Below are positions 1 to 13,278 of a stretch of DNA of 64,000 bases, in pieces. This DNA is from Spongiactinospora sp. TRM90649 (lineage in GTDB: Bacteria > Actinomycetota > Actinomycetes > Streptosporangiales > Streptosporangiaceae). The notes beneath the pieces were generated by a model that worked only from the letters and a program-made list of their open reading frames with translations, ran no database searches and was not told where the DNA came from. Location: contig NZ_JARLTC010000002.1 of the NCBI RefSeq assembly GCF_029382225.1, positions 496,001 through 560,000 on the forward strand. The letters run 5' to 3'. Numbering within the stretch: the stretch's first letter is position 1; each line of letters opens with the position of its first letter. Both the position numbers and the translations under genes were made by a program.

Positions 1-126
1 ATGATCGACAACGGTCGCCCGCAGGTACACGAACCCGCCTTCCAGCCCGATCCGACCGACTACGTGAGCTGGGAATACGCCAGAGGTTACGTGGACGGCG
101 TGATCGACACGGAGGAGCGGCGCTGA
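1..126 (+). CDS. DUF5319 family protein, C-terminal part (gene cut by window edge)
   Basis: The frame is open from base 1 and ends at a TGA at 124-126, giving 41 residues. The segment VHEPAFQPDPTDYVSWEYA and the following RGYVDG match my memory of the C-terminus of mycobacterial Rv3412 (VRPHEPAVDPEPDSYVTWDY, then CRGYAD), a DUF5319 protein encoded next to rsdA and sigD. The real start should lie left of the window, so the ATG at base 1 is probably internal. The function of the family is unknown. Its 3' end overlaps the convergent rsdA-like gene by 40 bp. Confidence 0.8.
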   Translation: MIDNGRPQVHEPAFQPDPTDYVSWEYARGYVDGVIDTEERR

Positions 127-296
127 TCGACGTCCTCGATCAGCGCGCGTAGCAGGCGGACCGCCGGGTCTCCCGTGTCGGGAAGCGCTTCCCTGCGGGC
201 CAGTGCCCGGCAGAGGGCGTCGTCGGAGACGACGCCCGACTCCTCGCCGCCGGGCCTGAGCGAGCGGGCCTGACAGAAGGGGTCGACAGCTTTCAA
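87..296 (-). CDS. RsdA-like short anti-sigma-D factor (sigma-binding region only)
   Basis: This 69-residue protein begins at a TTG that overlaps the sigD stop codon (TTGA), so translation is probably coupled to sigD. Residues 24-56 ([14 protein letters not shown], then [15 protein letters not shown]) resemble the N-terminal SigD-binding region of mycobacterial RsdA (a D-LL-ALA-RE pattern followed by D-A-A-LL--W--D). RsdA in mycobacteria is a membrane anti-sigma factor. Here there is no membrane segment and no extracellular domain, so if functional it would be a soluble SigD binder. It could instead be a degraded gene. The family assignment rests on motif memory. Confidence 0.6.
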
Positions 297-949
297 GCTA
301 TCGACTCCAGCTCGGCCATCGCGCGCAGTCGCGCCAGCGCCCTATGCTGGGCGACCCGAACCGCACCTGGTGACATGCCGAGTACATTACCGGTCTCTTC
401 CGCGGACAGGCCCGAAACCACCCGAAGGATGATGAGCTCCCGCTGGTTGTCCGGCAGCTTGGACAGCAGCCGCCGGGCGTGCTCCGCCTCGATGTAGCGG
501 ACCACGGTCTCTTCCGGCCCTGGCCCGTCGTCCGGGCCGTCCGGGAGGTCCTGCGTCGGGACGGCCGAGCGCACCGAACTGCGCAGGGCGTCAGCCACCT
601 TGTGCGACGCGATCCCGAAGACGAAGGACGCGAACGGCCGTCCCATGTCCCGGTAGCGCGGCAGCGCCGACAGCACCGCTATGCACACTTCTTGAGCCAC
701 GTCGTCGGCAATGTGATACTGACCGGCGACCCGGCCGAGTCGTGCGCGGCAATAACGCACCACCATCGGGCGTAGACGCCCGAGCAAAGATTCGATCGCA
801 CTGCGATCCCCCTGAACGGCCAGGCTCGTCAGTTCCCTGAGGTCGGACTCATCCGATCTCGTCGCAAGCCTTACCCCACCTATGGCGTCGGCGACGCTTC
901 CCTCGGTCACGTTAGGCATGATGCCCGTACTGATCGGGCCTGTCCTCAT
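293..949 (-). CDS. sigD: ECF RNA polymerase sigma factor SigD (ShbA type)
   Basis: This is a 218-residue group 4 sigma factor. Region 2 spans about residues 50-123 ([20 protein letters not shown], then [18 protein letters not shown]) and region 4 about 155-211 ([21 protein letters not shown] and the helix-turn-helix [19 protein letters not shown]). Position beside groEL1 and DUF5319 matches mycobacterial sigD and the Streptomyces shbA locus, where the factor directs transcription of the principal sigma gene; that target is inferred here. The ATG at 949 lacks a clear ribosome site, and the in-frame ATG at 919 is an alternative. The rsdA-like gene follows with overlapping codons. Confidence 0.9.
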
Positions 950-1258
950 GGCGAACGGCTACGGATTGGTCACATTGAGGGGACGGCGACCGGCCGTAAT
1001 CGAATGGCGACAGTGCGGATTAATAGACGCGAAATATTTCATAGCATTAGCCAATATGCCGCCTATTGGGGGGTGTCTTCGCCGACGCTTTAGCCCCGAG
1101 ACAGGTTTACCACGAAACAGATCTCTATCCGCCACACTTCCGTCTCAGAGATCACATGGACGCGAAAGTCGTGCCGCCGGAGGGCCGTCGGAGGGCTGCG
1201 GAGGGCCGTCGGCGCACCGCCGGGGGACCATACCCACGGGCCGTACCCCGACACGCGA
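950..1258. other. sigD upstream region without a recognised gene
   Basis: In mycobacteria whiB3 lies here, but I see no WhiB-like cysteine pattern on either strand. An AT-rich block at about 1018-1070 stands out from its surroundings and probably holds the sigD promoter, although I cannot fix convincing -35 and -10 boxes. The part at 1170-1215 is a run of GGAGGGC-like purine-rich units. The open frames here have poor codon bias. Confidence 0.4.
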
Positions 1259-1298
1259 ACGGCCCGCGGCCCCGTCGTGAGACGGGGACGCGGGCCGT
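1259..1298 (-). terminator. groEL1 terminator hairpin
   Basis: Arms 1259-1276 and 1281-1298 pair over 17 of 18 positions with a GTGA tetraloop (one G/A mismatch at 1269/1288). The hairpin lies about 80 nt past the groEL1 stop. There is no U tract, as is common for actinobacterial terminators. Confidence 0.8.
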
Positions 1299-1376
1299 GG
1301 CACCGACGGTTCCTGGGCGGCCCGTTGGACGCGCCTGGACGCGCTCTGGACGGGCCTGGACAGGCCGTAGCGGGGC

Positions 1377-3023
<1,647 letters not shown>

Positions 3024-3058
3024 TCAGCGGCTCCGGGGGTACAGCGGGAGACGCATCG

Positions 3059-3089
3059 AAGCCCCGGGCTGACGTGCTGCCCGGGGCTT
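3059..3089 (-). promoter_or_regulatory. Intercistronic hairpin between groES and groEL1
   Basis: Perfect 11-bp arms at 3059-3069 and 3079-3089 with a 9-nt loop lie between groES and groEL1. The position fits partial termination, mRNA processing or a stability element that sets the groES to groEL1 ratio. Cleavage in this interval of groESL1 mRNA is known in mycobacteria, but this hairpin's role is inferred. Confidence 0.6.
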
Positions 3090-3122
3090 GGATACGTCAT
3101 GTGAGTAAGGCCCCGTGGGCGC

Positions 3123-3434
3123 TTACTTCTCGATGATGGCGAGCACGTCGCGGGCGGAGAGCACCAGGTACTCCTCGCCGCTGTACTTCACCTCGGTACC
3201 GCCGTACTTGCTGTAGAGGACGATGTCGCCCTCCTTGACGTCGAGCGGAATCCGCTTCTCGCCGTCCTCATCCCAGTTGCCGGGGCCCACCGCGAGGACC
3301 TTGCCCTCCTGCGGCTTCTCCTTGGCGGTGTCCGGGATGACCAGGCCAGAGGCGGTGGTCTGCTCGGCCTCAAGCGGCTGAACCACAATGCGGTCGCCGA
3401 GCGGCTTAACGGGAACCTTGGTGGCGGTCGTCAC
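3123..3434 (-). CDS. groES: 10 kDa co-chaperonin GroES
   Basis: This 103-residue protein has the GroES core: [16 protein letters not shown] at the N-terminus, the mobile loop region around [19 protein letters not shown], and [23 protein letters not shown] near the end. It caps the GroEL cavity. The start is a GTG with a strong GGGGAGGT site 7 nt upstream. It is the first gene of the groES-groEL1 operon and is controlled by the promoter and CIRCE element at 3524-3585. Confidence 0.98.
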
Positions 3435-3523
3435 GATCGGACCTCCCCTTCAGATTTCGATGATCAGAAGAGGCGACCAGCGGCCTGCCGTCGCGGGTGT
3501 CAGACCTGCCTCGTCGCTTGTCA

Positions 3524-3550
3524 TTGGCACTCTCATAGGCAGAGTGCCAA
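3524..3550 (-). promoter_or_regulatory. CIRCE operator (HrcA binding site)
   Basis: TTGGCACTC at 3524-3532, a 9-nt spacer, and GAGTGCCAA at 3542-3550 form a perfect inverted repeat. It differs from the CIRCE consensus TTAGCACTC-N9-GAGTGCTAA by one symmetrical base per arm. It begins 6 bp after the -10 box, so bound HrcA would cover the transcription start. Confidence 0.96.
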
Positions 3551-3556
3551 CACGAA

Positions 3557-3585
3557 ACAGTATGCAAGGGGGCGCGAGTCGTCAA
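3557..3585 (-). promoter_or_regulatory. groES-groEL1 promoter
   Basis: On the minus strand TTGACG (3585-3580), a 17-nt spacer and TACTGT (3562-3557) form a good sigma70-type promoter directly in front of CIRCE. Confidence 0.85.
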
Positions 3586-3758
3586 CACGAACCGCCCGCA
3601 GGTCAGACCCTGTCCTGTCCGCTCGCAGAGGAATGTGCGCCTGGACGGCACGGACGACTACGCTCCACGCCACACGTGTGGCCACCATCCACCCTACGCG
3701 CACGAGCCACACCCACCGGACCCGCACTGGCCTCCCGGCCCGCCCTGGCCTCGCGCAC

Positions 3759-3793
3759 GAAGGAGCCGGCGCCTTCGAGGCGCCGGCTCCTTC
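3759..3793 (-). terminator. Strong hairpin terminator after the first small secreted-protein gene
   Basis: Perfect 15-bp arms at 3759-3773 and 3779-3793 enclose a 5-nt loop. The hairpin lies 40 nt beyond the stop of the gene at 3833-4075. It also separates that gene from the groES promoter. No U tract follows. Confidence 0.85.
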
Positions 3794-3832
3794 ATGTGGT
3801 CGATCAGGTTTCCTCTGATCACGGATACCAGG

Positions 3833-4075
3833 TTAGTTCTGGTACGCCCGGACGCTGCAGTCCACGGGCTTCTGAGAGTTGATGGTAACCGGAGAGAGCG
3901 GAATCAGCGGGATGGTGATGTCGCCGATGGCACTGTTGCCACAAACGATTACGTTGCCCGACTGCTGAGCGACGTTGTTTTCGTCGGGCCCGACGGTGGC
4001 GTGGGCCGGAGCGGCAAGCCCCACTCCGGCGAAAGCCGCCAGCACCGCGCCACTAAATGCGAGCTTCTTGAGCAT
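3833..4075 (-). CDS. Small secreted protein, paralogue 1 (C-X27-C family)
   Basis: This is an 80-residue precursor with a Sec signal peptide (MLKKLAFSGAVLAAFAGVGL, then AAPAHA) and a mature part of about 54 residues. The mature core is QQSGNVIVCGNSAIGDI, PLSPVTI, then VDCSVRAYQN, with two cysteines 27 residues apart that could form one disulfide. Three paralogues lie just upstream. The SGN and VCGN motifs recall chaplins, and the hydrophobic middle recalls rodlins, both exported surface proteins of Streptomyces. Cysteine spacing and length fit neither family well, so I leave the function open. A GGGAG site precedes the ATG. Confidence 0.93.
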   Translation of the reverse strand: MLKKLAFSGAVLAAFAGVGLAAPAHATVGPDENNVAQQSGNVIVCGNSAIGDITIPLIPLSPVTINSQKPVDCSVRAYQN

Positions 4076-4152
4076 CTAAATCTCCCGAACTTCCCGATCG
4101 ATCTCGGTATGAGGATCCAGCTCGTACCACCTGAAGGTCCGAGCCGGTAGCC

Positions 4153-4181
4153 AGTAGACCGATCCGGGACACGAACAGCAA
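4153..4181 (-). promoter_or_regulatory. Promoter of small secreted protein gene 1
   Basis: TTGCTG (4181-4176), a 17-nt spacer and TCTACT (4158-4153) lie about 77 nt before the start codon. The same arrangement precedes all four paralogues, which is the main support. A further block, ATTGGC next to the -35 and TTTCTTTACGGC farther upstream, is also shared. Confidence 0.75.
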
Positions 4182-4612
4182 GCCAATTGCACCATAACCG
4201 CCGTAAAGAAAAGGCAAATCACCATCCTGGCGAGACGAAACAGTGCCGAATTCACGGGCCCACGCATGCTTTGGGGGGAGCAATAGGAGAATTGGCTACA
4301 TGCGATGCTTGGTGGATTGTGTCCAGATCTGCCCAGCTAGATACCGTGATCGTGGGATGAGGATGGCTGCTCACCTATTTATGGGCGGCCCCTGTCCGTA
4401 ATGCACCCAGAGGCTGTGGCCGTATGCCAGGGACGCCGACTCCCTGTCCTGAACCTGACACGGCCGGCGCGGCCACATCCGGACCGGCGATGAGGCGCGG
4501 CATGGACTATCCGGAATCCCCGGAGGCCGTCCGCCGTCCTGCCGGGAAGATCAATGAAGATCAATAAGGATCGGGCGGTGCGTGGAGCAGAAGGGGGTCG
4601 GTACATGGAAAA
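4182..4612. other. Spacer between small secreted genes 1 and 2, no gene recognised
   Basis: The part up to about 4215 carries the conserved upstream box of the gene 1 promoter. The rest is moderate in GC, and its open frames (for example 4379-4747 on the minus strand) lack the GC-rich third codon positions of real genes here. I see no RNA gene. Confidence 0.4.
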
Positions 4613-4655
4613 GGGGGAGACCCCGGTCAGGAGGTCTCCCACCGGTGTCTCCCCC
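4613..4655 (-). terminator. Terminator with two competing hairpins after small secreted gene 2
   Basis: Arms 4613-4627 and 4641-4655 pair at 14 of 15 positions. Alternatively, 4615-4622 pairs perfectly with 4633-4640 (8 bp). The two folds share the left arm and exclude each other. The element is about 120 nt downstream of the gene at 4777-5025. Confidence 0.6.
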
Positions 4656-4776
4656 GGAGCCTTCGCACGGAAGGCGGATCCGGTGCCGAAGACCGGTCGA
4701 TCAAGGCCCCTGGCCCGAGGTCCGCGTTTGCGTCCGCGTCCAGTCACCTTTCGCGAACGACCTCAAGCAACGAGGT

Positions 4777-5025
4777 TCAGTTCTGGTAGACGCGAATGCT
4801 GCAGTCCACCGGGTCCTTCTTGGAAACGGTGACCGGTGCCAGGGTCAGCAGGCCGATGAAGATGTCGCCGATGGTGCTGTTGCCACACACGACCACATTG
4901 CCGGACTGGGTGCTGGTATTGAGGTCCTGGTCCTGCGGCCAAGGCGTGGCGGCCATCGCCGGTGCGCCGATTCCCGCGACCGCGAAAGCCGCCAGAGTCC
5001 CGCCGATTGCGAGCTTCTTGAGCAT
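4777..5025 (-). CDS. Small secreted protein, paralogue 2 (C-X27-C family)
   Basis: This 82-residue precursor starts at the ATG of MLKKLAIGG, with AGGAG upstream. A longer in-frame start at 5064 would add 13 residues not found in the paralogues. The signal peptide ends near APAMA-ATP. The mature core TQSGNVVVCGNSTIGDI, APVTV, then VDCSIRVYQN has the same C-X27-C spacing and ends in YQN like paralogue 1. The short N-terminal segment ATPWPQDQD is shared in part with paralogue 3. Probably a cell-surface or released protein; function unknown. Confidence 0.93.
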   Translation of the reverse strand: MLKKLAIGGTLAAFAVAGIGAPAMAATPWPQDQDLNTSTQSGNVVVCGNSTIGDIFIGLLTLAPVTVSKKDPVDCSIRVYQN

Positions 5026-5091
5026 TTGAATTCTCCTGATCGATCTTGCATGAGGTTCCGGCACCCAGAAATGGGTACGGGACCGATAGCA

Positions 5092-5120
5092 AGTAGACCT
5101 GCGGCAGACCCGAACAGCAA
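5092..5120 (-). promoter_or_regulatory. Promoter of small secreted protein gene 2
   Basis: TTGCTG (5120-5115), a 17-nt spacer and TCTACT (5097-5092). ATTGGC abuts the -35, and TTTCTTTACGGC lies farther upstream, as for paralogue 1. Confidence 0.75.
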
Positions 5121-5230
5121 GCCAATAGCATCGTTATTGCCGTAAAGAAACGGCAATCAACCAGAAATGCACCTTCTCCCCTCATCCCCACGTATGCCGC
5201 ACACTCTGACAAATCGGTCCTTGCACGCAC

Positions 5231-5265
5231 AAAAAAGGGGCACCGCGGCGTGAGCAGCGGTGCCC
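5231..5265 (-). terminator. Intrinsic terminator with U tract, 430 nt past small secreted gene 3
   Basis: Perfect 9-bp GC-rich arms at 5238-5246 and 5257-5265 are followed on the minus strand by CTTTTTT (5237-5231). This is the most canonical Rho-independent terminator in the window. It faces transcription from the small secreted gene at 5698-5946. Confidence 0.85.
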
Positions 5266-5697
5266 GCACAACCGAACCCACTTCGAACTCCGGTCGCCCG
5301 GCAGGCAGGCCGTCCTGGAAAGAGGACGTTCCTCCGGATGCCGTGGCCTCCTCCGTCGGACCGCCATCCGCCGGACAGCCATATCCGGCGGATCTCCGCG
5401 TGCTCCGCGGACGCACGCCGTCGGGCGCGGTCCGCCCAGAGCCCGCGCGTCGAGAAGGGCCTGCTCTCGACCGCGCGGCGGCAATGGCCGTCTTCCTCCG
5501 AGCCCTCGCCCTCGGCAGGGGGAGAAGATCGACGATGGTGCGTTGCCATGCATTGCCATCGTCTCCCACCATCCCCGGGCGATGGCCGCAAGGAGGCGGA
5601 CGGCCGGCTGAAGGCCCTCGCCACGAAGTTCCCTACCGGCCTCCGCTCGGGCCACCGGTCATGAAGGGGAACTGAAGGTCAACTGAGGGTCAACGTC
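5266..5697. other. Non-coding stretch between small secreted gene 3 and its terminator
   Basis: About 430 nt separate the stop at 5698 from the terminator at 5231-5265. The open frames here overlap one another on both strands and show no family resemblance. Near the gene end is a short direct repeat, with GGTCAACT followed by GGGTCAAC (about 5675-5695). It may be a long 3' UTR or hold a small RNA; I see no direct sign of either. Confidence 0.4.
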
Positions 5698-5946
5698 TCA
5701 GCTCTGGTTGACCCGGACGCCACAGTCGATCGACTTGCGGTCGGCAAGGGTCACCGGGGTCAGGTTGAGAAGGGTCACGGCCACGTCGCCGATCGCCGTG
5801 TTGCCACAGGTGATCGTGTTGCCGTTCTGCTGCGAGGCGTTGTTCTCGCCGCCGGGCCACGGCGTGGCCGCCTGGGCCGGCGTAGCGAGAGCCATGCCGG
5901 CAAATGCGGCGATCATGGTCCCGCTGAGTGCGAGCTTCTTGAGCAT
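5698..5946 (-). CDS. Small secreted protein, paralogue 3 (C-X27-C family)
   Basis: This 82-residue precursor has a signal peptide (MLKKLALSGTMIAAFAGMAL, then ATPAQA). The mature core is QQNGNTITCGNTAIGDV, LLNLTPVTL, then IDCGVRVNQS. It keeps the two cysteines 27 residues apart but ends in NQS rather than NQN or YQN. It is the most divergent at the C-terminus. GGGAG precedes the ATG. It is monocistronic, with its own promoter and a terminator about 430 nt downstream. Function unknown; see paralogue 1 for the chaplin/rodlin comparison. Confidence 0.93.
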   Translation of the reverse strand: MLKKLALSGTMIAAFAGMALATPAQAATPWPGGENNASQQNGNTITCGNTAIGDVAVTLLNLTPVTLADRKSIDCGVRVNQS

Positions 5947-6013
5947 CTAGATCTCCCGATCGATCTCGGAATGAGAATTCAGCTCGTACCACCTGAAGGC
6001 CGAGCCGCTAGCC

Positions 6014-6042
6014 AGTAAATCGACGCTCGACAAGAACGGCAA
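6014..6042 (-). promoter_or_regulatory. Promoter of small secreted protein gene 3
   Basis: TTGCCG (6042-6037), a 17-nt spacer and TTTACT (6019-6014). The leader from here to the ATG is nearly identical to that of paralogue 1 (CAGCTCGTACCACCTGAAGG on the plus strand), so copies 1 and 3 look like the most recent duplication. Confidence 0.75.
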
Positions 6043-6227
6043 GCCAATCAGCACTCAAACGACCTCAAAAGAATATCAAAGCCCGGCCATGCGCCTCCCA
6101 GATAATCACGGCTCTATGCGTGCCGAGGTTAACGCGAAGCGGGTGACGGCTTGACCCAGCCGTACCCGACGACAAACTCTCATACCAGAACCGGCCAGGC
6201 CGAGACCTGCCAGAACGCAGAAAGAGA

Positions 6228-6259
6228 GCGGGTGCCACGGCTTTCCCCGTGGCACCCGC
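6228..6259 (-). terminator. Hairpin terminator 366 nt past small secreted gene 4
   Basis: Perfect 13-bp arms at 6228-6240 and 6247-6259 with a 6-nt loop are followed on the minus strand by the pyrimidine-rich TCTCTTTCTG. It stands between paralogue 4 and the promoter of paralogue 3. Confidence 0.85.
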
Positions 6260-6624
6260 AAACCCAACTTTATCCTCGCGTAGCCGATGCGTCCCCCATA
6301 CGGGATTTCATGGCATCGGAGGTGTATCCCCTCGAAGGTCCGCAGCCCACGATCACGCGGCGGATCCCCGACGTTCTCAACGCGCCGAGCGTGAACAATC
6401 AGACCAGGTCTGGCGATATACGGATCCGCTGCTGAGCAAACCCTTTTCGCGCCAACCGGCCCTCGGCCGTCCGCCACATCCGGCGGTCGTGGGCCCACAC
6501 GCGGGAGAGCGCCCGACCGGAAATGACGGACTGGCCATAAAGGCCAAATTGAAAGGTTTCGCCTACGGACCGCGAGCAACTCGATGCGCTGCCACCGACT
6601 CCGTGAGGTACGTCAGAAGCACCC
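6260..6624. other. Non-coding stretch between small secreted gene 4 and its terminator
   Basis: This has the same layout as after paralogue 3: about 365 nt with no convincing reading frame between stop codon and terminator. It may be a long 3' UTR. Confidence 0.4.
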
Positions 6625-6864
6625 TTAGTTCTGGTTGGTCCGGATGCTGCAGTCCGTCGCCTCGTTGTTGGAGAACGTGACCGGGGCGAGGTTCAGAATG
6701 GGAACACTGATGTCGCCGATGGTGCGGTTACCGCAGACGATCGTGTTACCGCTCTGGGTGGCAACGTCATTGTCGTACTCATCACTGGCGTACGCCGGAG
6801 CGGCGAGGCTCAGGGCAGCGAAGCCCGCGACCACGGCACCGCTGACGATGAACTTCTTGAGCAT
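6625..6864 (-). CDS. Small secreted protein, paralogue 4 (C-X27-C family)
   Basis: This 79-residue precursor has a signal peptide (MLKKFIVSGAVVAGFAALSL, then AAPAYA) and an acidic mature N-terminus (SDEYDND). The core TQSGNTIVCGNRTIGDI, ILNLAPVTF, then TDCSIRTNQN keeps the C-X27-C spacing. An AGGAG site precedes the ATG. It is the farthest copy from groES. Function unknown. Confidence 0.93.
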   Translation of the reverse strand: MLKKFIVSGAVVAGFAALSLAAPAYASDEYDNDVATQSGNTIVCGNRTIGDISVPILNLAPVTFSNNEATDCSIRTNQN

Positions 6865-6928
6865 GTCAATCTCCTGTTGGATCTGTCTGACGACTCCGGC
6901 CCGTCCCCTTCGAGCGGAGCCACTAATC

Positions 6929-6958
6929 AGTAGACCTGAGACATTGCACTAAAAGCAA
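6929..6958 (-). promoter_or_regulatory. Promoter of small secreted protein gene 4
   Basis: TTGCTT (6958-6953), an 18-nt spacer and TCTACT (6934-6929). The upstream box TTTCTTTACCGC is present but closer to the -35 than in copies 1 and 2. Confidence 0.7.
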
Positions 6959-6959
6959 G

Positions 6960-7792
6960 AGAATAGCGGTAAAGAAAGCCTAAGCCTCATCGGTATACCC
7001 GTAAGACAATAAATAGGACATTCTGGATGCCCTTACCATCACAAATTGGACCTCATATCAGCAAACCTCTCATGGGCACAAACATTTCCGCCCCGTGCCC
7101 CCATGCCACCGCAAGCCGTCCACCCCGCTCGCAGGGCCTCCCGAGCCGATCGAGGGCATGGCCCGGCAGAGGGCGGGTGGGGCATGCGGCGGTTCCAGTA
7201 TCAGCGCCTGCCCCGGCGGGCGGGCCTGGGGCGGTGCCGCCTCTGACGGCCGGGATCGAGCGCACGTCCTCGACCCGCTGAGGCGGACGCCGACCGCCCC
7301 CAGCGGGGTCGGCGACGCCGCGTCTCCGTACGCGGCGCATAGCGCGGCCGGGCGTTGGCGGAGGCCGGCCGAGCCGGCGAAGCGGGGACCTGAACGGGCC
7401 ATCAGCGGTGACTCCGAACCGGCCACGTGTAGGGCTTCTACTGGCCACGGACAGCCGGTGTCATCAGCGGGCCTTCTCCAGGCCGTACACGGCGTCCAAG
7501 CGACCAGCCGATGGCGCAAGCGTCGGGCGAGCCCGACCCAAGAAGAACAGTCCGAGCGCAGCGAGGGCGATCAGCGTCCGCCCAGCAGCAGCGACGGCAG
7601 AGCCGACGGTGGGTGGCGCGCAGGCGGAAACATGCGGCGGGGGTGGCGGGGCGTGCGGCCTATGGGGAATGCGGGCGGCACGCGGGGGCGTGGTGGCTTG
7701 GGTTGGCGTGGGGGGTAGGGACGGCAGGGTTGTGCGAACGGCCTTGGGTCCCTGACGGTGGCGGTCGATGGTCGGGGGTGGCGGACGCGAGA
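6960..7792. other. Gene-free region between small secreted gene 4 and the repeat protein
   Basis: The first 120 bp are AT-rich. From about 7090 the DNA is very GC-rich, with overlapping open frames on both strands. Their translations are Arg/Pro/Gly-rich without family features, so I do not call any of them. The size leaves room for one lost copy of the roughly 0.92-kb small-protein unit, but I see no relic of the C-X27-C core. Confidence 0.4.
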
Positions 7793-7818
7793 GGGCCGGC
7801 ATGAACAAATGCCGGCCC
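7793..7818 (-). terminator. Hairpin terminator after the secreted repeat protein
   Basis: Perfect 10-bp arms at 7793-7802 and 7809-7818 enclose the loop GAACAA, 60 nt beyond the stop codon at 7878. Confidence 0.8.
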
Positions 7819-7877
7819 CCCGTGGGCCCAACCGCACTGCACCCAGCTTGTCGGGAGCCGGGTGCGCACGTCGTCAC

Positions 7878-8501
7878 TTAGTTCTGGTTGCTCGCGCTGC
7901 TCGTGGACGCCACGGAGTCATTGAAGTTCCAGACCACCGGGTCGGCGCCGGACCTCTTGTGCTCGTGCTTCTTGGGCCACTTGTGCTCGGGCTCGTGCTT
8001 CTTGGGCCACTTGTGCTCGGCCTCGTGCTTGTCAACGTCGACATACGAGTTGTGCTCGTACTTCTTCTCCCACGAGTGGCGGGACTCTTCTTCCTTGTTG
8101 AAGGAGTCCTTCGCCGTGGCCTCCTTGTTGAAGGATTCCCGGGTGGACTCGTCCTCGTTGAAGGACTTCTCGATCTCAACCTCGCGGTCGAAAGAGTCCT
8201 TGATCTTCTTGTTCTTGAAGTCCTCGTTGAAAGACTTCTCGGTGTAGGTGACCCGGTTGCAGGTCTTGCTGCGATGCTTCTTGTCCTCGGCGTTGTAGAT
8301 GCCGTCGAACGACGTGCCGACCCACTGGCCGACCGGGGCGTTCTTGGCGACGTCGCACAGGTAGACGTAGTAGACGGCGCTGGTGGGCTCGGCCTTCTTC
8401 TTCTCTTCGGGCTTGGGCTCGGTGCCCGCGTTCGCCTGGGTGGCGAAGGTCATGGCCAGGGCCGCGGCCAAAAAGCCGACGGTTGTCATTTTCCTGATCA
8501 T
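7878..8501 (-). CDS. Secreted charged repeat protein with NQN C-terminus
   Basis: This 207-residue precursor starts at MIRKMTTVGF, with GGAG upstream; a longer in-frame start at 8576 would bury the signal peptide. The signal runs to about residue 25 (ATQANA). A region with two cysteines (YLCDVAK and SKTCNRV) is followed by tandem units of about ten residues built on SFN(E/K)(E/D), then two copies of EHKWPKKHE. The mature protein is rich in Lys, Glu and His. It ends SASNQN, echoing the tails of the four small paralogues upstream. Unknown function; a surface-exposed or matrix protein is plausible. Confidence 0.88.
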   Translation of the reverse strand: MIRKMTTVGFLAAALAMTFATQANAGTEPKPEEKKKAEPTSAVYYVYLCDVAKNAPVGQWVGTSFDGIYNAEDKKHRSKTCNRVTYTEKSFNEDFKNKKIKDSFDREVEIEKSFNEDESTRESFNKEATAKDSFNKEEESRHSWEKKYEHNSYVDVDKHEAEHKWPKKHEPEHKWPKKHEHKRSGADPVVWNFNDSVASTSSASNQN

Positions 8502-8810
8502 CGCTTTGCGACTCCGTACTTCGTGCTTGCCGGGCAAGTGCTGGTCGTTCCGAACCGCGTTACGCCAGCTTGCCACTCGATTTCTTCCGTCATGTTGAAT
8601 ACCTCTGATTCCCGAAAAACAAACAACACCATTTCTTTTCCTACCATCGCCTACTTGTACCCTATTTGCACACCGGCGAGGTTTCCGTTGGATGTCTGCT
8701 AATCACAGCTATGCAAGATCTATCGCCTATGCCCTATATGACAGGACATATCCGGTTATTTCCGCCCTTCGCGACCGGAGGGGGTGACACCCTGCGATAG
8801 CGTCGGGAAC
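8502..8810. other. Divergent promoter region
   Basis: This 309-bp region lies between the secreted repeat protein (minus) and the methyltransferase (plus). It is AT-rich from 8590 to 8760, unlike its surroundings. I see no small gene. The plus-strand -10 box TAGCGT at 8798-8803 belongs to the methyltransferase. Confidence 0.5.
8798..8803 (+). promoter_or_regulatory. -10 box of a probable leaderless methyltransferase mRNA
   Basis: TAGCGT ends 7 nt before the ATG at 8811, so transcription should begin at or next to the A of the start codon. No -35 is evident. Confidence 0.5.
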
Positions 8811-10058
8811 ATGAACCTTGACGCATTTCTTGAGCTCCTGACGTCCCGTGGGCAGGAGGCCCTGGCGGCGGCCGAGGAGCTTGTGTCGAGGAACGACCCG
8901 GTCGCCGCCGCGACCTCGATGCGCCGCGACCATCCCGCCGAGCTGGCCGCGGCTGCGCTGACCCAGGCCGGGCTCCGCTCGCGCGCGGTCGCCAAGTTCG
9001 GCCACGACGCCGGGCGCATGTACTTCACCCCGGACGGCCTCGAACAGGCCACCCGCCCCGAGGTGGCCGGCCACCGCGCCCGCCGTGTCGCCGCCGTCCT
9101 CACCGACCGGGCTGGCGACGGGGCCGTGGCCGATGTCTGCTGCGGAATCGGGGGCGATGCGATCGAGCTGGCGCGGGCGGGGTTGAGGGTGCTCGGTCTG
9201 GACCGTGATCCACTGGCCGTCGCCGTCGCGCGGGCCAACGCTGCGGCGCTCGGGCTCGCCTCGCTCGTCGAGGTCCGGACGGCCGACGCCGCCGACGTGG
9301 ACCCCCACGCCCACCGGGCCCTGTTCATCGACCCCGCCCGCCGGAGCTCCGCCAGGCGGATCTTCGACCCGATGGCCTACTCCCCACCGCTCCCCCAGGC
9401 CCTGGCGCTGGCGTCGGCCGCGCGTGGGGCGTGCCTGAAGGTCGCGCCCGGCCTGCCGTACGAGTTCGTCCCGGAGGGGTCGGAGACCGAGTGGGTGTCC
9501 TACCGGGGGGAGGTCAAGGAGGCGGTGATCTGGCTGGGCGAGGCGGCCGGGGCGTTCGGGGGCCGTGCCGCCCCGGGCGAGGAGTTTCTGCGCAGGGCCA
9601 CGCTGCTGCCGTCCGGGGAGACCATGCTCGCCGACCCCGACGCCCCGGTGCCCGCGACCGGTCCCGCCGGGAGGTACCTGTTCGAGCCGGACGGCGCGGC
9701 GATCCGGGCGCACCTGGTCGCCGAGATCGCGGCCTCGGTCGGCGGGTGGCTGCTGGACCCGCGGATCGCCTACATCACGGGCGACGAGCCGGTGGCCACG
9801 CCGTGGGCGTCCTGCTACGAGATCGAGGACGTGATGCCCTTCTCGCTAAAGCGGCTGCGCGCGGCCCTGCGGGAGCGCAAGGTCGGGACGCTCACGGTGA
9901 AGAAGCGCGGGTCCGCCGTGGACGTCGAGCGGTTGCGACGCGATCTGCGGCTTTCTGGTGATAATTCCCTTGTCGTAGTGCTTACCAGAATTGCGGAGAA
10001 ACCGATCACACTCCTTTGCACACCGGTTCCGGCGAAAGTCACCGAGCCCCTAAAATAG
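8811..10058 (+). CDS. THUMP-like domain class I SAM-dependent methyltransferase
   Basis: The 415-residue protein carries a Rossmann-type SAM site, VADVCCGIGGDA at about 107-118, followed by the acidic loop GLDRDP. Its C-terminal part (MPFSLKRLRAALRERKVGTL, then TVKKRGSAVD) matches the THUMP-like domain of actinobacterial methyltransferases. The substrate is not known to me; rRNA or tRNA is likely by fold. The ATG at 8811 fits family N-termini (MNLDAFLELL); an upstream GTG at 8784 is less likely. It faces away from the secreted repeat protein. Confidence 0.88.
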   Translation: MNLDAFLELLTSRGQEALAAAEELVSRNDPVAAATSMRRDHPAELAAAALTQAGLRSRAVAKFGHDAGRMYFTPDGLEQATRPEVAGHRARRVAAVLTDRAGDGAVADVCCGIGGDAIELARAGLRVLGLDRDPLAVAVARANAAALGLASLVEVRTADAADVDPHAHRALFIDPARRSSARRIFDPMAYSPPLPQALALASAARGACLKVAPGLPYEFVPEGSETEWVSYRGEVKEAVIWLGEAAGAFGGRAAPGEEFLRRATLLPSGETMLADPDAPVPATGPAGRYLFEPDGAAIRAHLVAEIAASVGGWLLDPRIAYITGDEPVATPWASCYEIEDVMPFSLKRLRAALRERKVGTLTVKKRGSAVDVERLRRDLRLSGDNSLVVVLTRIAEKPITLLCTPVPAKVTEPLK

Positions 10059-10264
10059 GGACGATTCCGGGATAATCGCAAAGTTTTCAATTACCGGAGT
10101 ACGCGGGCTCCCTGACGGGCTACAGTTTTGGAGCCTCGGAGACCACCTTCCATCGACACGGGCGAGATCGGCCAGGCCGGGCGAACCGCACGCCGTCCGG
10201 GCTCCGGGGATCCCGACAATCCCACCGCCGCGCGGCCGACGTCGGCGAGTGAAGGAGCCATTCG

Positions 10265-11788
10265 GTGGATCACTCCAGCAACACCGTGCTGCAGGCGGGC
10301 AGCCAGACCGCCGTCTCCGACCGCATGCGCGAACTGCTCGCGCGCGCCGCCCAGGACCACGTCTACGAGCAGCGCACGCAGGGCGCGGTACTCGACGAGA
10401 TCCGGCAGCGGCTGGAGGGGATGGAGTGGTTGCTGCGCGAGGTCCGCGAACGCGAGCTGGGCGGGCTCACCGGCAGCCTCGACGCCGTGTCCGGACGGCT
10501 CGACGACATCGCCACCCGGCCCCCGACCTGGGCCGAGAGCCTGGCGCAGCACATCGAGGCGATCCGTGACCACGTCGACGTGGTCGGCGTCCGCGTCGAC
10601 TCGGTCGGCGAGCAGGTCAAGCCGGTCGCCGAGCTGCCCAGCCTGTGGGCCGACGTCGGCGCGGTGGGCGAGAGCATGGAGGAGGCCCTGTCCCGGCTGG
10701 CGACGGTGGTGGAGGGCGCCCAGGGCATCTCCCAGCGGATCGGCGACCTCGCCGCCCGCCTGGGCCAGCTCCAGAGCAGCATGGAGGCTGCCGCGGGGCG
10801 GTTCAGCCGCCTCGACAAGTCGGTCGCCGACCTGTCCCAGCGACACGACGACGACATCGCGGCGCTGGGCGAGCGGGTCGATCGGGTCGCGGCGCTGCTG
10901 AGCGCGGCCGAGGCCCGGATGACCGAGCGGGTGGAGGCGGCCGAGAGCCGGGCCGGCGCGCGGCTCGACGCCGTCGCGACCCGCCTCGGCGAGACGGTCA
11001 CCAACGCCGAGACCAGGATGGGCGAGCGCATCGACGGCGTGGGCGCCCGCGTCGGGGGGCTCGGCACCCGGCTGGAAGGCGTCGAGACCCGCGTCCAGGG
11101 CTTCGACTCCCAAATGGACGGCATGACGACCCACGTCCAGGGCGTGGGTGCCCAGATGGAGGACATGACGGCCCGCGTCCAAGGGGTCGGCGCCCTGATG
11201 GAAGGGGTGGAGGCGCGGGTCGAGGACGTCAGTGCGCACGTCAGGGGGCTCGGGGCCCGGGTCGATGACGTGGACGCGCGGGTGGAAGGCGTCGGCACCC
11301 AGGTCGAGCGGGTGGGCACCCGCGTCGGTGAGGCCGACGCCCGGATCATCGGGCTCGACTCCCGTTTCGACGGCAGGCTGTCCGCCATCGACGGCCGTTT
11401 CGACGGCGTCAACGCCCATCTCGCCCGCCTGGCCGCCGACGCCGAGGAGACCAGGGAGCAGATGGAGGCGGTGGACGATCACGTGGAGGCGGTCAACCAG
11501 CGCATCGGCAGGCTCCCGTCGTCGCTCAACATCGGCGAGCGGGTCGGCGAGCTGCTCACCACCCACAGCGAGGAGCACGCCGTGCGCTTCGAGTCGCTGG
11601 CCAAGGCCGCCGACACGCTGCTTGAACTGGTGAAGAGCCGCCCGGACGGCGAGCGGCTCAGCGAGGTGGTGGGCGAGGTGGTCCAGCCCGCGCACGCCGA
11701 TCTCACCCGCCGCCTGGCCGCATTGGAGGAGACCATGCTCGCCCTGGCCGAGGCGCTGCTGCGCCCCTCACGCCAGGGCAAGGACTGA
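10265..11788 (+). CDS. Long coiled-coil protein with 19 tandem heptads
   Basis: This is a 507-residue soluble protein starting at a GTG with AAGGAG 7 nt upstream. There is no signal peptide or membrane helix. Residues 255-387 form about 19 uninterrupted 7-residue units of the type (R/H/Q)(V/M)xGVG(A/T), for example RVGGLGT, RLEGVET and RVQGVGA, ideal for a parallel coiled coil. The flanks are also helical and rich in Ala, Glu and Arg. Structural, scaffold or partition-like roles are possible, but I recognise no named family. Its stop lies 4 bp from the convergent tsaD stop. A TACAGT -10 box at 10121-10126 may serve it. Confidence 0.9.
   Translation: MDHSSNTVLQAGSQTAVSDRMRELLARAAQDHVYEQRTQGAVLDEIRQRLEGMEWLLREVRERELGGLTGSLDAVSGRLDDIATRPPTWAESLAQHIEAIRDHVDVVGVRVDSVGEQVKPVAELPSLWADVGAVGESMEEALSRLATVVEGAQGISQRIGDLAARLGQLQSSMEAAAGRFSRLDKSVADLSQRHDDDIAALGERVDRVAALLSAAEARMTERVEAAESRAGARLDAVATRLGETVTNAETRMGERIDGVGARVGGLGTRLEGVETRVQGFDSQMDGMTTHVQGVGAQMEDMTARVQGVGALMEGVEARVEDVSAHVRGLGARVDDVDARVEGVGTQVERVGTRVGEADARIIGLDSRFDGRLSAIDGRFDGVNAHLARLAADAEETREQMEAVDDHVEAVNQRIGRLPSSLNIGERVGELLTTHSEEHAVRFESLAKAADTLLELVKSRPDGERLSEVVGEVVQPAHADLTRRLAALEETMLALAEALLRPSRQGKD
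11027..11425 (+). repeat. 21-bp tandem repeat array encoding heptads
   Basis: About 19 in-frame degenerate 21-bp units inside the coiled-coil gene. Purifying selection on heptad positions is more likely than recent expansion, because the units differ at many codons. Confidence 0.7.
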
Positions 11789-11792
11789 ACGG

Positions 11793-12824
11793 CTAGACGT
11801 GCACCGTCGTGATGGGCATCGACGAGTCGGCCGGGATGCCCAGCGTGGACGGCGCGACGCCCGCCCGCACCAGGTCTGATCCGAGCGTGGCCACCATGGC
11901 CCCGTTGTCGGTGCACAGCCCGGGCCGGGGCACGCGCAGCCGCACCCCGGCGGCGTCGCAGCGCTCCTGGGCGAGGGCCCGCAGCCGGGAGTTGGCCGCC
12001 ACTCCCCCGCCGATGAGCAGGTCGTGCACGTCGTAGCGGCGGCACGCGGCGATGGCCTTGCGGGTGAGCACGTCGACCACCGCCTCCTGGAAGGACGCGG
12101 CGACGTCGGGCACGTGGACGGCCTGCCCGGACGCCTCCCTGGCCTCCACCCACCGCGCCACGGCGGTCTTCAGGCCGGAGAAGGAGAAGTCGAGCGTGCC
12201 GTCGTCGTACTTGCCGCGCGGGAAGGCGATGGCCGTGCCGGAGCCGTCGCGGGCGGCGCGGTCGATGTACGGGCCGCCGGGGAACGGCAGGCCGAGCACC
12301 CGGGCGACCTTGTCGAACGCCTCGCCCGCCGCGTCGTCCACGGTGGAGCCGAGGGAGATCACGTCGCGGGCGACGTCGGGCACCAGCAGCAGCGAGGAGT
12401 GCCCGCCGGAGACCAGCATGGCCACGCAGGGCCGGGGCAGCGGGCCGTGTTCGAGCTGGTCCACGGCGACGTGCGCGGCCAGGTGGTTCACCCCGTACAG
12501 GGGGACGCCCAGACCCAGCGCGTACGCCTTGGCCGCCGCGACGCCGACCAGCAGCGCCCCGGCGAGCCCGGGACCCGCGGTGACCGCGATGGCGTCGATG
12601 TCGGTGAAGGCGAGCCCGGCCTCGCCGAGCGCCCGCTCCACGGCGGGCGTCATGGCCTCCAGGTGCGCCCGCGAGGCGACCTCGGGGACCACCCCGCCGA
12701 ACCTGGCGTGTTCCTCGACGCTGGAGGCGATCGTGTTGGCCAGCAGGGTGTGGCCGCGGACGATGCCGATGCCGGTTTCGTCGCAGGAGGTCTCGATGCC
12801 GAGCACCAGTGGTTCGTCAGCCAT
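11793..12824 (-). CDS. tsaD: tRNA N6-adenosine threonylcarbamoyltransferase TsaD
   Basis: This 343-residue protein is the catalytic subunit for t6A37 formation in ANN-decoding tRNAs, transferring threonylcarbamoyl from its AMP ester. The metal-binding motif HLAAH is at 114-118 and the ASKHA nucleotide motifs are present (SGGHSSLLL and [11 protein letters not shown]). It is the last gene of the tsaB-rimI-tsaD operon: its start overlaps the rimI stop by 8 bp. Confidence 0.97.
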
Positions 12825-13278
12825 CCAGCTTCCTCATCATCGTGATCGCGTCGGTGCCGTCGTCGTAGTAGCCGCGCCGCACGCCGATGTCCTCGAACCC
12901 GAACCGCTGGTAGACGGCGCGAGCCTGCGGGTTGTCGGCGCGGACCTCCAGGAAGACGGCGGCGGCGCCGCGCCGCAGCGCCTCCTTCATCAGCTCGCGC
13001 AGCAGCGCCCCGCCCACGCCGGTGCCCCGGTGCGCGGCGGTCACCGCGATGGTCTGCACGTCGGCCTGGTCTCCGGCGGCGGCGAGCCCGGCGTAGCCGA
13101 TGATCTCGTCGTCCAGCTCGGCCACCACGTAGTGGCGGGTGCGCGGCTGGTCGGCCAGTTCGGCGCGGAGCATGGCCTCGCTCCAGGCGTCGGACGGGAA
13201 GGTGTCCCGTTCGAGCTCCAGCACCACGGCCAGGTCGTCGTCGGTCATCTGGCGGAGCGTGGCGGCGGGACGGCTCAT
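12817..13278 (-). CDS. rimI: Ribosomal protein S18-alanine N-acetyltransferase RimI
   Basis: This is a 153-residue GNAT enzyme. Acetyl-CoA motif A is [15 protein letters not shown], and the C-terminal [16 protein letters not shown] is typical of RimI. It acetylates protein N-termini, classically S18. Its start overlaps the tsaB stop by 4 bp (ATGA) and its end overlaps tsaD, so the three genes are translationally coupled, as in many Actinobacteria. Confidence 0.95.

Follow-up and report, generated by a model that had tools for sequence, protein, structure and literature searches.

A groES-linked array of small, predicted exported two-cysteine proteins with a shared predicted promoter module in Streptosporangiaceae: a possible chaplin-like coat

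Array genes and their family

Spongiactinospora sp. TRM90649 (Streptosporangiaceae) carries, within the 64,000-nucleotide stretch analyzed here (contig NZ_JARLTC010000002.1, positions 496,001 to 560,000; hereafter, the window, to which the coordinates in Table 1 refer), an array of four paralogous genes, A1 to A4, that encode small, predicted exported proteins and are located between groES and the gene of a predicted exported repeat protein (hereafter, the repeat gene). The four co-directional minus-strand open reading frames (ORFs) of the original prediction, with precursors of 79 to 82 amino acids (aa), were all recovered, and each contains the shared MLKK start, the Q(S/N)GN, CGN and IGD motifs, the L-x-PVT segment and DC(S/G)(V/I)R. 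The spacing of 27 residues between the two cysteines, which had been thought invariant, holds for the four window proteins but, family-wide, for 32 of 37 members (28 in one, 29 in four). The Sec signal likewise claimed for these proteins stays a prediction, consistent with signal-like starts seen by eye in the family alignments (Lys-Lys, a hydrophobic stretch and AxA); the predicted mature products consist of 53-56 residues.

A2 to A4 are 55-61% identical to A1, whereas each of the four genes has a positional orthologue in S. rosea with 67-83% identity, so the four-gene set is not a chance occurrence (the window genome belongs to the same genus as the genomes taken for S. rosea and S. gelatinilytica). 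For the pooled mature part of A1 to A4 compared with these orthologues, the proportions of nonsynonymous (pN) and synonymous (pS) differences were 0.17 and 0.30, respectively; thus, A1 to A4 behave as real genes, and they are under purifying selection.

When 5.8 billion proteins were searched with a 37-member query and the 7994 candidates sharing the most words were scored, 46 family proteins were obtained at E ≤ 9.5e-22, followed by a gap, after which came two chaplin-labelled matches with E values of 0.27 and 3.2; the first round, with a four-member query, had ended at P0040 (E = 0.013), which carries no label and resembles the DUF320 family discussed below more closely. The named genera with the family are Spongiactinospora, Streptosporangium, Microtetraspora, Thermocatellispora, Thermoactinospora, Nonomuraea, Thermostaphylospora and Thermopolyspora, and one S. 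rosea array protein bears the database name “Chaplin domain-containing”. In whole-genome searches, the best candidates were scored for each genome (at most 16 for the array family, 128 for the promoter module and 15 for the head of the repeat protein). At E ≤ 1e-6, the array profile matched 16 of the 341 genomes of the window's family in the Genome Taxonomy Database (GTDB), namely, 8 with strong matches (best E ≤ 9.8e-34), the divergent G354 (1.5e-8), and 7 at 2.7e-7 or weaker, which were not counted as family members; the two of these 7 that were inspected contain DUF320-type genes (G020) and a QSGN-FG protein (G035). Weak precursor matches with a QSGN-FG body (G029, G035, G011:C8 and C14 of the window genome) were excluded, their similarity residing mainly in the signal region. 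The mature sequences of the G354 proteins show no significant similarity to the array, to which these proteins are tied through position, the MLKK start and the promoter module only.

No significant match was found in Pfam or NCBIfam for the four window proteins, or in Pfam for the 37 members (the best, DUF7327, had E = 0.0015 and appeared in two of them), and no sequence relative of the array proteins was detected in the PDB (best E = 0.18). The open-licence literature searched yielded no recognizable account of the family. Judged by these comparisons, the array proteins are an undescribed family, as had been suspected.

Predicted promoter module, spacing classes and putative leader hairpin

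Upstream of the array genes, we identified a TTCTTTACG box, a gap, TTGCTN, a spacer of 17-18 nucleotides (nt), TCTACT, a leader of about 57-81 nt, GATCGATCGGGAG-like bases and the ATG, in that order; the box, the -35 and the -10 are alike across the array genes, and the intervening bases vary. A sequence-only model of this module (box, promoter and leader), built from 28 array upstream regions, was compared with 8 genomes containing 39 array genes and matched at E ≤ 4.3e-7 before 38 of them; the 10 of these 38 that had not been used to build it include four S. gelatinilytica near-copies. The 39th gene, the lone one of Streptosporangium, had E = 4.5e-4, and E values from 5.2e-7 to 2.5e-5 were obtained for the genes of G354 and G355, compared to a best E of 0.199 or no match in 15 array-free genomes. 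No small exported ORF was found behind one further match (G027:C15:75713, E = 0.0023). In the 9.1 Mb genome of the window, a strict promoter pattern occurs at three sites, all in the array, and its reversed control at none; A3, with TTTACT as its -10, escapes this pattern, and its hexamers were read by hand, the automatic reading having picked others. A general sigma-70 scan recovered none of the array promoters, which therefore are far from the sigma-70 consensus. Each array gene is thus predicted to have its own promoter, of one shared, rare type.

The distance between the box and the -35 is either 9 nt or about 20 nt (22-23 nt in the A3-type genes); the difference of 11 nt between the main gaps is approximately one helical turn. 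We mapped the gap class on a tree of 32 proteins drawn from a set of 40 genes, which itself excludes the lone Streptosporangium gene on C77 and two G355 genes; omitted from the tree were four S. gelatinilytica near-copies of S. rosea, two G354 genes, L041_8655 (no clear box) and L042_8050 (unclear box), and the gaps of the A3-type genes (22-23 nt) and of L040_10824 (9 nt) were hand-read and classed before the tree was built. A single change of class is required on this tree, against a mean of 9.2 for shuffled classes, and none of 500 shuffles was as low. The branch separating the classes has a support of 89/92, below the star of the tool, and a single change also suffices in 92% of 200 bootstrap trees. 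Both classes are present in all 7 tree genomes, each with one or three short-gap and three long-gap genes, and the short-gap genes adjoin the repeat gene, with the long-gap genes on the groES side, in all 7 groES-linked loci (two genes are unclassed). Because the two spacings follow the protein tree and both classes occur in every tree genome, we infer that the gap classes correspond to two kinds of subunit; this distribution argues for such a division beyond mere gene dosage.

The retention of both classes in 7 of 7 genomes also bears on the possibility that the array encodes secreted signalling or antimicrobial peptides, small and disulphide-bonded, that act on neighbouring cells: for independent toxins, both classes would not be needed. 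Furthermore, we recognized no immunity, processing or export gene in the conserved block, where the array, repeat, groES-groEL, sigma, methyltransferase, coiled-coil and tsaD genes were compared, a comparison that did not cover short ORFs within the gaps. The small size, predicted export, two cysteines and several diverged copies are as expected of such peptides, and the same can be said of the patchy distribution (8 of 341 genomes) and of the ratio of nonsynonymous to synonymous substitution rates (dN/dS) in the mature part, 0.43-0.54 versus S. rosea, which is loose for a bacterial gene. All considered, a peptide function appears improbable to us.

Between the predicted promoters and the start codons, the leaders show a propensity to fold. 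Over the 46 nt that follow the -10, the predicted folding energy was below the mean of dinucleotide shuffles in all 40 leaders (mean z of -1.78), in 17 of them individually at the 5% level or better, and the best fold of most leaders is a hairpin near the 5' end (the exceptions are L039_11198, L041_8655, L083_9223 and L085_5402). Because RNAalifold found no consensus pairs in the leader alignment, the stem was named from single folds and then counted. In the named stem, 78.4% of the cells pair, compared to 19.9-46.6% for slid stems, the covariation score is 0.255 versus 0.207 in shuffles (2 of 500 as high), and 16 cells are changed on both sides (7 of 500 shuffles as high). Counted by pairs, 6 are changed on both sides versus 4.9 in shuffles, 163 of 500 being as high, and the stem slid by +1 equals or exceeds the named one in such changes, with 7 pairs and 22 cells versus 6 and 16. 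Given that the leader sequences are related, the covariation amounts to moderate evidence, and the predicted 5' leader stem is moderately supported. In other bacteria, a hairpin so near the 5' end slows mRNA decay.

The spacings and the hairpin might also have no function, having been inherited with the duplicates and marking two old lines of paralogues. Plain descent predicts exactly the observed tracking of the protein tree by the spacing, and the modest covariation of the stem, including the count of pairs changed on both sides, accords with it as well. Such descent fits less readily with the constancy of the box, -35 and -10 among varying bases, or with a difference between the main gaps close to one helical turn, from which the A3-type genes, with their weaker box, deviate. 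We consider descent without function rather unlikely.

Relation to chaplins and possible coat function

Short chaplins (PF03777, ChpA-C, formerly DUF320) resemble the array proteins in the signal-like start, the mature part of about 50-58 aa, the two cysteines, and the GN and VCGN motifs. The array proteins differ in that their cysteines are 27 residues apart, the chaplin model is not matched, and the genes have their own promoter module and form a groES-linked array. The unlike cysteine spacing, already pointed out in the original prediction, is borne out: all 37 members have two cysteines, with 27-29 residues between them, compared to 13 or 18 in five chaplins from the genomes studied. True chaplins were detected in all 13 genomes tested, among them 6 of 6 array genomes.

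A connection to chaplin-type genes comes from Bailinhaonella thermotolerans (G027), where two MLKK genes of the VPIQLCN family carry the array module in the short-gap form (E values of 4.0e-4 and 3.2e-3 in the genome; 23.2 and 20.3 bits) and lie about 1.4 kb from a very long multi-domain chaplin frame (L139:5616-8252). Public databases label relatives of the VPIQLCN family as DUF320 or Chaplin. The profile of the DUF320-type family compared with six short chaplins gave a probability of 80% (0 of 60 shuffles) and, with 71 chaplin sequences, 8.4% (0 of 60 shuffles); a first six-sequence DUF320 set had given 2.0% against chaplins. This “Small secreted domain DUF320” family (Nocardiopsis, Haloactinospora and Bailinhaonella; alignment A7) shares with the array the ML(K/R)K start, tandem copies and two cysteines but differs in its VPVQVCN core, C-x21-23-C spacing (by eye) and CxNG end, and the profile similarity between the two is not significant. 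In Haloactinospora, four DUF320-type exported genes are arranged in tandem with a spacing of about 300 bp (L043:4926-6076). The shared module ties the array to two chaplin-type genes of Bailinhaonella and lends the chaplin link some support from outside the proteins, which may share a common descent.

The interpretation that we favor, with about even confidence, is that A1 to A4 represent two co-regulated classes of subunits of a chaplin-like coat on aerial hyphae or spores, so that the array proteins, though outside the chaplin model, may act like chaplins. Under this scenario, the precursors would be exported via Sec, the two cysteines of each mature product would form one disulphide, and the products would polymerize, as two subunit classes, into the coat. 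The hexamers would constitute a working promoter, and the TTCTTTACG box would bind one activator that acts from two positions one helical turn apart, setting the levels of the two classes. The 5' hairpin would form and stabilize the array mRNAs, and the repeat protein could be a part of the same layer.

Several results, in addition to the lack of RNAalifold consensus pairs and the count of pairs changed on both sides reported above, weigh against a chaplin-like coat. The chaplin profile check proposed for these proteins, now performed, gave no significant match: the PF03777 model did not match any of the 37 members, nor A1 to A4 at E ≤ 10 in a search of the window genome that detected chaplins on C64 and C68 at 24-41 bits, so the array proteins are not chaplins as defined. 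Comparison of the mature part by hhalign yielded probabilities of 13.8% and 8.3% against chaplins, equalled by 2 and 3 of 60 column shuffles, respectively, and 1.5% against the chaplin-related DUF320 family (7 of 60 shuffles); an earlier array-chaplin profile run gave 6.9%, under the best of 100 shuffles. The GN motifs are mostly 6 residues apart (21 of 37 members, with a single GN in 10 and other patterns in 6, one of them with a spacing of 13), as opposed to the chaplin rule of three GN motifs spaced 12-13 residues that is given in PMC13251363. Four of five chaplins of these genomes, by literal count, also fail this rule, having only two GN, 15-16 apart; therefore, GN spacing was given less weight. 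The mature array proteins do not appear strongly hydrophobic, with a grand average of hydropathy (GRAVY) from -0.64 to 0.25 in the 37 members (mean -0.14), compared to -0.13 to 1.10 in the five chaplins. AlphaFold2 applied to the 37 aligned precursors produced no usable fold (pLDDT 51, pTM 0.17). Finally, the module model matched neither eight chaplin loci (two of the window genome, L054 and L067), nor the third VPIQLCN-family gene of G027, on C59, nor the tandem DUF320-type genes of Haloactinospora and G010. The original likening of the array proteins to chaplins is therefore upheld in part, by the shared motifs, the Bailinhaonella module and one chaplin label, but not by PF03777 or by significant profile homology.

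These observations also bear on the alternative that the array is a separate family of small exported proteins that converged on chaplin-like motifs, with promoters, not proteins, reused in Bailinhaonella. Convergence would account for the non-significant mature-only profile comparisons with chaplins and the chaplin-related family, for the GN spacing, and for other chaplin-related genes without the module; it fits poorly with the MLKK start, size, two cysteines and promoter-leader being jointly common to the array and the Bailinhaonella pair, and with the chaplin labels of the two matches beyond the gap, although their E values are high and the better-scoring P0040 is unlabelled. We regard it as unlikely. 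Slightly less probable still, in our view, is a heteropolymeric coat outside the chaplin family, in which promoter geometry would set the subunit ratio, one activator box, shifted by a helical turn, driving the two classes at separate promoters of single genes, the 5' hairpin would make for long-lived mRNAs, and the pentad-repeat protein would be a scaffold.

Surface films of filamentous actinomycetes, as summarized in PMC4255298, are known chiefly through the chaplins, rodlins and SapB of Streptomyces. Rodlins of the streptomycete surface, compared here by description only, resemble the array proteins in their small size and in secretion, which is predicted for the array; they are reported as obvious only in streptomycetes (PMC4255298). 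Outside Streptomyces, CwpA and CwpB of Actinoplanes missouriensis have been proposed as hydrophobic surface proteins, and their identity to long chaplins is only 10-15%; their description, as sortase-dependent and without arrayed homologues, sets them apart from the array (PMC13251363). If the chaplin-like interpretation is correct, the array would be a second small-protein coat system, separately regulated and occurring alongside true chaplins, and would show how coats diversify; the two promoter classes yield a prediction that is testable by one reporter experiment.

Locus organization and the repeat-protein neighbour

Seven of the 8 strong genomes share one gene order, namely, methyltransferase, repeat gene, array, groES, groEL and sigma factor (Table 1), with 4 (the window), 4, 4, 4, 5, 7 and 4 array genes. 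In the remaining one, Thermoactinospora, six array genes are located elsewhere, without groES or the repeat gene; this relocated array adjoins an ORF that, by eye, resembles a secreted subtilisin-type protease (L163:6902-8341).

Table 1. Features of the array region, in window coordinates
Feature	Position	Strand	Remarks
Array gene A1	3833..4075	-	80 aa precursor; long-gap class
Array gene A2	4777..5025	-	82 aa; long-gap class; MLKK start at 5025, listed ORF extends to an upstream GTG
Array gene A3	5698..5946	-	82 aa; long-gap class
Array gene A4	6625..6864	-	79 aa; short-gap class; closest to the repeat gene
A1 predicted promoter	4153..4210	-	box 4202-4210, -35 4176-4181, -10 4153-4158; gap 20, spacer 17
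A2 predicted promoter	5092..5149	-	box 5141-5149, -35 5115-5120, -10 5092-5097; gap 20, spacer 17
A3 predicted promoter	6014..6073	-	weaker box 6065-6073, -35 6037-6042, -10 TTTACT 6014-6019; gap 22, spacer 17
A4 predicted promoter	6929..6976	-	box 6968-6976, -35 6953-6958, -10 6929-6934; gap 9, spacer 18
A1 predicted 5' leader hairpin	4117..4147	-	
A2 predicted 5' leader hairpin	5054..5084	-	
A3 predicted 5' leader hairpin	5980..6007	-	
A4 predicted 5' leader hairpin	6892..6928	-	
groES (Cpn10)	3123..3434	-	conserved downstream neighbour of the array
Predicted exported repeat protein	7878..8501	-	207 aa; two-Cys head, then SFNxx-like pentads; own, different upstream region
Terminator-like hairpin 3' of A2	4615..4640	-	sequence scan
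Terminator-like hairpin between A3 and A2	5241..5259	-	sequence scan
Terminator-like hairpin between A4 and A3	6228..6259	-	sequence scan; 13 pairs

A tblastn search with the array found no match in the groES-methyltransferase interval of 20 further genomes, including G354, although a strongly diverged array could escape such a search. Apart from G354, 11 of these intervals are shorter than 700 bp and 8 span 980-4539 bp. The G354 interval, despite the tblastn result, contains a pair of MLKK genes together with an exported repeat gene of different composition (L088:2553-3299); the product of the latter, which occupies the position of the SFN repeat gene, is predicted to be exported and has two cysteines in the head and AEPAKAEA repeats, and a weak copy of the array promoter-leader (15.5 bits) is found at the start of this gene.

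The SFNxx-like pentads of the repeat protein are clearer and longer in some relatives, reaching about 400 residues at most, in Thermostaphylospora. The profile of its head matched 7 of 338 family genomes, exactly those with groES-linked arrays; because the model was built from these seven, the informative part is the absence elsewhere. The upstream region of the repeat gene, conserved among relatives by eye, differs from that of the array. Homology of the head with the array proteins is unsupported (probability of 0.28% in a profile comparison; 16 of 60 shuffles), and Pfam contains nothing significant for the repeat protein (best E = 0.016). Identity as a pentapeptide-repeat protein was rejected, the pentads not fitting the rule for such repeats. 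A second paralogue of the repeat head is present in Streptosporangium sp. KLBMP 9127 (G343:C25:39170-39439), on a contig other than that of the array. Microtetraspora has an additional exported gene (L040:7637-8074), located between its array and groES, that weakly matches both the array profile (E = 5.2e-4) and the repeat-head profile (E = 1.4e-7), with the signal peptide included in these matches.

Terminator-like hairpins occur at 10 sites in the array region, compared to 4.9 expected. An Rfam scan of window positions 1-13000 found nothing near the gathering score, the best match being Thr_leader at 3756-3826 (30.7 bits versus a gathering score of 55), which spans a hairpin after A1. Upstream of groES, at 3524-3550, the sequence reads TTGGCACTC-N9-GAGTGCCAA, an arrangement that we take to resemble the CIRCE operator of heat-shock genes.

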